From Prochlorococcus sp. AG-409-J16 (GTDB taxonomy: Bacteria; Cyanobacteriota; Cyanobacteriia; PCC-6307; Cyanobiaceae), in assembly GCA_003215655.1 (NCBI GenBank), contig QCKB01000006.1:1-64000 (forward strand): a stretch of DNA of 64,000 nt. The letters run 5' to 3'. The translations under genes were made by a program, and so were the position numbers. The notes beneath the pieces are model-generated. The model did no database searches and was not told the DNA's origin. It saw nothing but the letters and a program-made list of their open reading frames with translations. Positions 1 through 2,193 of this stretch are shown one piece after another. Every line of letters begins with the position of its first letter. The stretch's first letter is position 1.

Positions 1-139
1 TTTTGAAAATGCTTTGAAGCTACTTGCTCTATGTCTGGTTTATAAAAGGCCCAAGAACGAGTTATCACTTGGATCTGAAGGAATACAAGATCTAAAAGGA
101 CTTCTGTACAGTTTTCAAGATGCAACAGAGCCTCCCTAG
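1..139 (+). CDS. 3' end of an unidentified gene (partial)
   Basis: A reading frame is open from the left edge (first full codon at base 2) to a TAG at 137-139, giving about 45 residues ending in SFQDATEPP. The start lies outside the window. The fragment has a leucine-rich stretch followed by a charged C-terminus and I do not recognise the family. It precedes the small membrane-protein gene at 207 on the same strand. Confidence 0.5.
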   Translation, partial: FENALKLLALCLVYKRPKNELSLGSEGIQDLKGLLYSFQDATEPP

Positions 140-206
140 CAGAAGCCCTTCTCGTTTATAAGTACCGGAATATAAAAACAAGGCTATTTTAAAGCCCCTT
201 TTATTG

Positions 207-410
207 ATGATTGATTTAAACCACATCATTGATTTCGCAACACAACTTCCTCACCCATCTGACATCGGTTTAATCAAGCCCTCAGGAGGTTTCAACCTTG
301 CAGCAGCTCTCTGCGGCTTAGGTGCAGTATTTGGAATGACACAATTCCTTTACTACTCTGATGATTCAAAAAGAATTGATCCCTGGGCAAAACCAGAAAA
401 CTATGAATAA
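207..410 (+). CDS. Small single-membrane-span protein, copy 1 of a tandem pair
   Basis: This encodes 67 residues from ATG 207; a TTG lies one codon earlier. The N-terminus MIDLNHIIDFATQLPHPSD is almost the same as that of the protein at 650-826, so I place the start at this ATG. A soluble N-terminal half with a KPSGGF motif (about residues 24-29) is followed by one hydrophobic segment (about 30-50) and a polar tail. The gene ends before a clear hairpin terminator at 458-486. The two copies lie beside the pcb antenna gene, which suggests but does not show a thylakoid role. The family is not one I can name. Confidence 0.7.
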   Translation: MIDLNHIIDFATQLPHPSDIGLIKPSGGFNLAAALCGLGAVFGMTQFLYYSDDSKRIDPWAKPENYE

Positions 411-457
411 GAGCTAACTGAGCAGTTATCTCAATAGGCCAAACAAAAGGCTTTAAA

Positions 458-486
458 GGGTAGGGCTAAAATCCCTACCTTTTTTA
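458..486 (+). terminator. Rho-independent terminator after small membrane protein 1
   Basis: GGTAGGG (459-465) pairs with CCCTACC (473-479) around a seven-base loop, followed directly by seven T residues. It sits about 50 bases after the stop codon at 408-410. Confidence 0.85.
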
Positions 487-649
487 TTGGGCTTTTTTCC
501 CTTTAAAAACCCCACTCCCATAGACATGAAAAGGCCTTAATGAGTCTTTGGAATGGCACTTATACCTTATTTTATTTTGCAAGGTGCAACTGAAACGACC
601 AGATCCTTCGCATAATGAGTTATAAAAGCTGGACTTACTCATTCACTTA

Positions 650-826
650 ATGATTGATTTCACGCATATCATTGATTTCGCGACCCAATTACCACATCCA
701 TCAGATATTGGATTGGTCAAGCCATCAGGTGGATTCCAATTCCTACCAGCACTATTTGGACTTATCGCGCTTGTTCAAGTAAGTCAGTTCATCTATTACG
801 GTAAAAACGATCCAGGTGATGCCTAA
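650..826 (+). CDS. Small single-membrane-span protein, copy 2 of a tandem pair
   Basis: ATG 650 to TAA 824-826 gives 58 residues. The first half (MIDFTHIIDFATQLPHPSD, then IGLVKPSGGF) matches the 207-410 product nearly residue for residue. The membrane segment (FLPALFGLIALVQVSQFIYY, about 31-50) and the short acidic tail have diverged. Each copy has its own terminator, so they appear to be two separate transcription units made by duplication. Function is unknown. The amphipathic head plus one helix resembles many low-mass photosystem-associated subunits, but I see no match to a named one. Confidence 0.7.
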   Translation: MIDFTHIIDFATQLPHPSDIGLVKPSGGFQFLPALFGLIALVQVSQFIYYGKNDPGDA

Positions 827-1020: not shown

Positions 1021-1052
1021 AAAAAAAAGCCTCACCATGATGGCGAGGCTTT
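1021..1052 (-). terminator. Rho-independent terminator of pcb
   Basis: Read on the minus strand, AAAGCCTC pairs with GAGGCTTT (1045-1052 with 1026-1033), extended by CCAT/ATGG around the loop, and is followed by a run of T. It lies about 40 bases past the pcb stop codon. Confidence 0.85.
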
Positions 1053-1089
1053 CCAACTCACAGAGAGTAAATACTATCTCTAGGAACTT

Positions 1090-2193
1090 TTATCCCTTAA
1101 GAGAGACAGTCGCACTATCAAGGTTTCCAATTGCATTTGGAATACGTTTGAAATCAAAGCCCATGGCGCGCAAAGCATGCCAAAGGTGACCCTGAATAAA
1201 GAAGAAGCCTAGGTAGTAATGGACATTGGTCAACCATGCACGAGAGGTATGACCGAATGGCGCTCCATCTGTAGGAACAACAGTATCTACCCAATAAGGT
1301 GAAATACCAAACTTCAATTGAAGTGTTTCTCCATACCATTCAGTTGGATAAACAGTGGTATTAGTTGCACACCAGAAGGCAGCAATAATTGCCATCCAAC
1401 CAATCCCTGCTAAGGACCAGGACAAAATAGCCTCTGCTGAGAGAAGATTCTTACCTTTGAATTCGGTGTATTCACCAAGGATTCCAGATCCCATCTTGGT
1501 AGCAATGTGATGAGCACCACCAAGGATTTGAGCAAATGCCAAGAAGGCATGTCCGCCCATGACGTCCTCAAGACTATCGATAGCGAGGAAATCAAACTGG
1601 TGACTCCAAATAGCAGTCAAATCTAGGTTGTAATTAACCTGACGAACTGCATCAATTGCCGGGTCATAAATGCCATGTACTCTGGCCCATTCAACAAACC
1701 AGATGTTGGCAACAGCAAAGAAAATCAGATGATGGCCAAGGATGAAAGTCTGGTTATCAGGGTTGTCCCATTCCAGTTTGTACCTAGCAGCTTGACGATG
1801 CTCTGGGCGATCATCTGCGAACAGTCCTGAACTGTTCTGAGTGTCTTCACTAAATATCAGAGAGTGCAAAAGACCAGCTCCTGAATAAACCATGGAGCAG
1901 ATCAAATGGAAAACTCCTACTAAAACAACTCCCGTTCCAGTCCAGACGACTCCCGCTTCATCGAAGCCAATTCCCATTGCAGCCAAATGAGGAATGCTTA
2001 CCATTCCTTGATGGCCCATTGGGATGTCAGGGTTGTACCGAGCTAGCTCCCATAGGGTGTTTGCACCAGCTGCAAAGCAAATCAATCCTGTGTGAGCAAC
2101 GTGTGAGCCAATAAAACGGCTCGACTTGTTGGTCACTACAGAATTACCAACCCACCATCCATAAGAGGGGTTTGGATTTCCATAGGTCTGCAT
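1090..2193 (-). CDS. pcb: Pcb divinyl chlorophyll a/b-binding light-harvesting protein
   Basis: A 367-residue member of the Pcb/IsiA/CP43 family, the intrinsic thylakoid antenna that replaces phycobilisomes in Prochlorococcus. I start it at ATG 2193 (MQTYGNPNPSYGWWVGNS) because Pcb proteins begin this way; a GTG at 2235 would add 14 unrelated residues. Six hydrophobic segments carry paired histidines, for example GSHVAHTG near residue 25, HLICSMVYSGAGLLHS near 100, and two HxxxH-type pairs near 230 and at the C-terminus (GHLWHALRAMG). It lacks the large lumenal loop that distinguishes CP43 (psbC). Whether it serves PSI or PSII cannot be told from sequence alone. Upstream lies about 600 bases of mostly non-coding DNA that should contain its promoter. 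Confidence 0.93.
   Translation of the reverse strand: MQTYGNPNPSYGWWVGNSVVTNKSSRFIGSHVAHTGLICFAAGANTLWELARYNPDIPMGHQGMVSIPHLAAMGIGFDEAGVVWTGTGVVLVGVFHLICSMVYSGAGLLHSLIFSEDTQNSSGLFADDRPEHRQAARYKLEWDNPDNQTFILGHHLIFFAVANIWFVEWARVHGIYDPAIDAVRQVNYNLDLTAIWSHQFDFLAIDSLEDVMGGHAFLAFAQILGGAHHIATKMGSGILGEYTEFKGKNLLSAEAILSWSLAGIGWMAIIAAFWCATNTTVYPTEWYGETLQLKFGISPYWVDTVVPTDGAPFGHTSRAWLTNVHYYLGFFFIQGHLWHALRAMGFDFKRIPNAIGNLDSATVSLKG

Follow-up and report, generated by a model that had tools for sequence, protein, structure and literature searches.

What two very short proteins with almost the same N-terminus do beside an antenna gene is the question raised by the start of contig C6 (QCKB01000006.1) of Prochlorococcus sp. 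AG-409-J16, whose first 64,000 nucleotides are the window analyzed here. The two genes lie just to the right of the contig edge, preceded by window positions 1–206, and a first-pass annotation made from the letters alone had read them as paralogous small membrane proteins with a conserved head, a variable anchor and a thylakoid role near pcb. The features concerned are these:

207–410, plus strand: headed small membrane protein, subtype A, 67 aa, tail FGMTQFLYYSDDSKRIDPWAKPENYE (ORF, genome match, alignment)
445–497, plus strand: hairpin with U-run, likely the subtype A terminator (RNA fold −20.2 kcal/mol, z −2.6)
650–826, plus strand: headed small membrane protein, subtype B, 58 aa, tail QVSQFIYYGKNDPGDA (ORF, genome match, alignment)
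861–910, no strand assigned: perfect inverted repeat with a 23-bp stem, separating subtype B from the convergent pcb gene (RNA fold −45 kcal/mol on the plus and −44.4 kcal/mol on the minus strand, z about −9.5)
1024–1054, minus strand: terminator-like hairpin and T-run 3' of pcb (simple scan and RNA fold)
1090–2193, minus strand: pcb antenna gene, chlorophyll a/b-binding (TIGR03041, E 5e-159; tree)

Both small open reading frames are present where they had been annotated, and the neighbor is, as claimed, a true pcb gene. Residues 1–29 of the two products are identical at 26 of 29 positions (differing only at 4, 5 and 23) and residues 30–52 at 9 of 23, which bears out the description of a nearly identical N-terminus followed by a divergent helix and tail. 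When the 207–410 protein was searched against its own genome, the 650–826 protein was the sole other match at that sensitivity (E 1.4e-19), and the similarity between them is far above chance. The separate terminators that had been proposed can also be placed: likely in the hairpin at 445–497, which the simple terminator scan missed, and probably in the stem at 861–910, which has no classic U-run and would serve in both directions, for subtype B and for the convergent pcb gene ~260 bp away. At −45 kcal/mol the latter repeat is unusually strong for a terminator.

The head of the pair (pN 0.066, pS 0.76) differs sharply from the helix (pN 0.42, pS 0.80), the same pattern is seen in most other pairs, and synonymous sites of the window pair are saturated in both regions; the window-pair head is thus under purifying selection at the protein level and is not the product of recent conversion, while the helix is freer, as the annotation's conserved head and variable anchor had implied. 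A lower head pS of 0.35 in one other pair (L082) suggests that conversion may occasionally operate. Across 84 distinct sequences eleven head residues after M1 are invariant (A11, Q13, L14, P15, H16, P17, D19, G21, K24, P25 and G28), and 44 subtype A sequences show hardly any variation in the tail YSDDSKRIDPWAK. An AlphaFold2 model from a 30-sequence alignment (mean pLDDT 74.8) predicts an amphipathic helix at 4–13, an extended stretch and a membrane-length helix at 31–51; a Foldseek search of this model against the PDB gave no match, as expected for one helix.

Both window proteins belong to what is here called the Pcb-linked headed small-protein family, a name and a set of criteria defined in the present analysis: a head of the form MIDx[ST]Hx2DFATQLPHPSD[IL]Gx2KPSGGF followed by one transmembrane helix. 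In all, 91 distinct headed proteins were collected. Subtype A comprises the 207–410 product and its like, with tail YYSDDSKRIDPWAKPENY; subtype B comprises the 650–826 product and the SQFHWYARDxNDPxxF forms; subtype E has a short tail and often stands in tandem with subtype A; and subtype C, of 106 aa, has a second helix. Subtypes D and C0 are headless, in one-helix and two-helix forms, and AG-409-J16 itself has headless members at C1:541789 and C15:9176. Since headless relatives are present in other Prochlorococcus, high-light strains included, the head is probably a module added to a headless form, and the helix domain with its GGF..xAAxxG motif would be the older and wider part of the family.

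The small proteins have no family in Pfam, NCBIfam or PHROGs, where they gave chance matches only, and searches of the PDB by sequence and by profile found no resembling chain in any entry; the annotation's failure to name a photosystem subunit therefore stands. Relatives were found in 80 of 400 genomes of the taxonomic family, and a genus-only search added no further genome. All named records among them are Prochlorococcus save one labelled as an uncultured Synechococcaceae MAG, and when 291 genomes from all over the phylum were searched with a profile, matches came from genomes of the same family only, plus one marginal match (E 0.004) inside a 476-aa frame. By these searches, of the kind the annotation had suggested, the small-protein family is restricted to Prochlorococcus. 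Homologues confined to non-photosynthetic contexts, a lack of conservation beyond this genome and an exact match to a known subunit, any of which was to count against the annotation, were not what was found. In the open-licence papers found by locus tags and pcb arrays, headed small proteins are not described. A phage auxiliary gene reading was rejected, as no homologue could be confirmed in phage or viral contigs: IMG/VR viral contigs contain no confirmed relative, and phage records gave only weak chance matches and no PHROG match. Weak matches in EF-G-region frames of high-light genomes (L150, L151, L153) were likewise set aside as chance, these frames lying on the opposite strand of a long translation-factor gene.

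Conserved linkage to pcb, the other check that had been suggested, is strong. Seven closed genomes, each representing its own genus, contain 16 headed genes; 13 of these have a pcb gene no more than 1.5 kb away, where 0.2 are expected (nominal binomial p 1e-22, a value inflated by shared ancestry), and all 16 have one within 4.3 kb. Subtype A is within 0.5 kb of pcb in 14/14 closed genomes, which are related by descent, and sits inside a run of pcb genes in most of the loci fetched. Headed genes of subtypes B, C and E occupy several other array positions and also adjoin isolated pcb genes away from the main array (SS120 1343950, G039 27531, MIT9211 1308766), so that one inherited adjacency is insufficient to explain the linkage; it may still come in part from gene duplication within recombining arrays. 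(SS120, MIT9211 and MIT9313 are what we take genomes G010, G077 and G070 to be.) Each closed genome has 1–5 small genes and 6–8 pcb genes. In SS120 the order is pcbD, small B, pcbB, small D, A, E, pcbH, and another small B gene stands 75 bp away from pcbE; this order combines the protein accession order of PMC2644788 with the coordinates used here, the matching of names to positions being our own. For headless two-helix relatives in closed genomes, the distance to any pcb is 90 kb to 1 Mb, and the wider family is thus not strictly antenna-bound. In the genome of the window, a different pcb gene is cut off by the end of contig C9 (G000:C9:56585-57193 = L165:6586-7194), and C6 opens just left of the small genes; the AG-409-J16 array was therefore probably split, and its left part lost, in an assembly gap.

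The distribution of the headed proteins follows that of the expanded pcb complement. Among 131 near-complete genomes, with pcb counted by TIGR03041, headed proteins occur in 22 of the 23 genomes with at least four pcb genes and in 0/108 with at most two. The sole exception, G145, is a 7-contig assembly in which four pcb genes were found; its closed congeners have seven. No headed gene was present in the high-light genomes searched (the g18 genomes, of low pcb content, are those taken here to be high-light strains). High-light strains and MIT9313 have pcbA with no headed protein, and Pcb function is thus not dependent on one. The headed family tracks the published history of the antenna, in which pcb expanded in the LLVII grade, was kept in later low-light clades and was lost in high-light ones (PMC11559063); the text of that paper does not mention small or hypothetical proteins.

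Which Pcbs the small genes adjoin bears on which photosystem they might serve. In a tree of 62 Pcbs they adjoin 0 of 9 in the clade of IsiA and MIT9313 PcbB and 0 of 8 pcbA-like rows; all their neighbors but one fall among the expanded Pcbs, and that one is MIT9313 pcbA, next to which stands a doubtful relative of 30 aa. The window pcb is itself in an expanded Pcb clade, together with the gene at 1344168 of SS120, which is assigned to PcbE by matching name to position. According to a review, the photosystem I (PSI) ring is formed by PcbG in SS120 and, under iron stress, by PcbB in MIT9313, and PcbA is an antenna of photosystem II (PSII) in MIT9313 and MED4 (PMC8635728). The IsiA/MIT9313-PcbB clade also contains the SS120 genes that we assign to PcbC and PcbG. 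Because the small genes never adjoin the clade that contains the PSI-ring Pcbs, an association with PSI appears less likely, and the Pcb phylogeny, the one line of evidence on this point, suggests an association with expanded PSII-type Pcbs. The earlier interpretation is partly supported: its pcb linkage, kept head, freer anchor and lack of a named subunit stand, joined by restriction to Prochlorococcus, and its PSI version has lost ground.

Taken with the several subtypes per genome, the kept head and variable helix and the location among expanded Pcbs are best fitted by accessory subunits or assembly factors. The reading preferred here, held with somewhat better than even confidence, is that the products of the window genes are paralogous thylakoid proteins of low molecular mass, working for the expanded Pcb antenna (of PSII type) in low-light Prochlorococcus as accessory subunits or assembly factors. 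Each protein would consist of the head (a short amphipathic helix and LPHPSD.G..KPSGGF), a single transmembrane helix and a tail characteristic of its subtype; the head may dock on a partner common to all paralogues, for example a shared Pcb or PSII-core surface, the helix and tail may fit a particular neighboring Pcb, and the small proteins, acting either as stoichiometric linkers or as assembly factors, would then place or stabilize Pcb subunits of the PSII type. A narrower version is offered tentatively, in which the headed proteins form a class of antenna subunit not yet described, one whose origin coincided with the expansion of pcb at the base of LLVII and the later low-light clades; each subtype would be dedicated to particular expanded PSII-type Pcbs and fixed by the shared head to one common docking site.

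A strictly transient role, with the head bringing in a shared biogenesis partner while the helix recognizes a nascent Pcb for assembly or chlorophyll loading, would account for the kept head and variable helix, for small genes being fewer than pcb genes in closed genomes and for separate transcription with own terminators; however, the strictly kept subtype-specific tails fit a structural role at least as well, and no biogenesis gene was seen beside the small genes. This alternative is considered rather unlikely. That the family is instead a set of membrane proteins, thylakoid or other, unrelated to the antenna and multiplied as hitchhikers in recombination-prone pcb arrays is judged unlikely. 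Such arrays are indeed tandem and rearranged, headless relatives lie far from pcb, and high-light strains retain a headless relative away from pcb; but passive multiplication does not sit well with the headed genes found at isolated pcb genes away from the main array, with the absence of any headed gene from the high-light genomes searched, or with the strong selection on head and tail.

A very improbable reading takes the head, which ends in KPSGG before variable sequence, for the double-glycine leader of a bacteriocin or prochlorosin-like precursor with a variable product. Such leaders have hydrophobic residues at −4, −7 and −12 before GG, but the head has P at both −4 and −12, so that only −7 fits; no Nif11 or GG-leader family was matched in Pfam or NCBIfam, the GG is part of the helix motif in headless relatives, and whereas product peptides vary, the tails of subtype A hardly do.

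Among known systems, the proposed antenna proteins resemble PsbK, PsbZ, Psb30, PsaI, PsaJ and the like in having a single short transmembrane helix, in their 40–70 residues and in that the chlorophyll proteins they seem to serve belong to the CP43 superfamily; they differ from these low-molecular-mass photosystem subunits in their long kept N-terminal head, their multiple copies, their confinement to Prochlorococcus and their lack of a Pfam, NCBIfam or PDB match. HLIP/Scp proteins are small one-helix proteins of thylakoid type that are multi-copy in Prochlorococcus. The small proteins share the single helix and the multiple copies but, unlike HLIPs, are linked to low-light pcb arrays and in headed form are absent from high-light strains; the chlorophyll a/b-binding helix motif of HLIP/LHC proteins (ExxN/HxR) is absent from their alignment, and Pfam gave no match. 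The neighboring Pcb belongs to the Pcb/IsiA superfamily, as in PSI-IsiA structures and in 7ymi/7ymm with their Pcb-like chains. Its best PDB matches carry IsiA or other names, with no Prochlorococcus Pcb structure recognized among them, and no chain of those complexes resembles the small proteins. Low-light Prochlorococcus is a major phototroph of the deep euphotic zone with 6–8 Pcb genes. On the question of how so many Pcbs are sorted and held around its photosystems, the headed proteins, confined to expanded-Pcb genomes, located among pcb genes and bearing a strictly kept, docking-like head, are named candidates to be sought in antenna preparations. The two window proteins are probable accessory components of the low-light antenna, hitherto undescribed.

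Several minor observations concern the relatives. A 30-aa ORF of MIT9313 (MIPSAAILGVLGILGFAFFFWLAVNDPADA, L194:3465-3557), 1.3 kb from pcbA, matches the headless profile weakly (bits 21, E 8e-4) and is doubtful as a family member; it recurs at an equal distance in another genome of that genus. A second tiny family of 45–47 aa (MNLLASFALGGFNPWAAGFGIGSLVLFGLVGLVAGPNLKNFDPDA; L156:2229-2489, L155:1770-1907, L157:2123-2332, L161:1518-1655) has no match in Pfam or NCBIfam, shares the GGFNPxAAxxG helix start and occurs in high-light and low-light genomes. Headless two-helix relatives of about 93 aa ending in AGPxxIFFPF (L128:6001-6279, L130:5878-6147, L132:5740-6024, L136:5878-6159) lie far from any pcb in several low-light genomes. 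The headless relative of high-light Prochlorococcus is of 41 aa (L148:3016-3138, L149:2992-3117), and in both genomes it adjoins a conserved ORF containing NYWLIIGTYRQGPGGRPEVSGITSPSLHSIPMKD (L148:3351-3629, L149:2532-2819), which adjoins a headless member in G057 (L133) as well.
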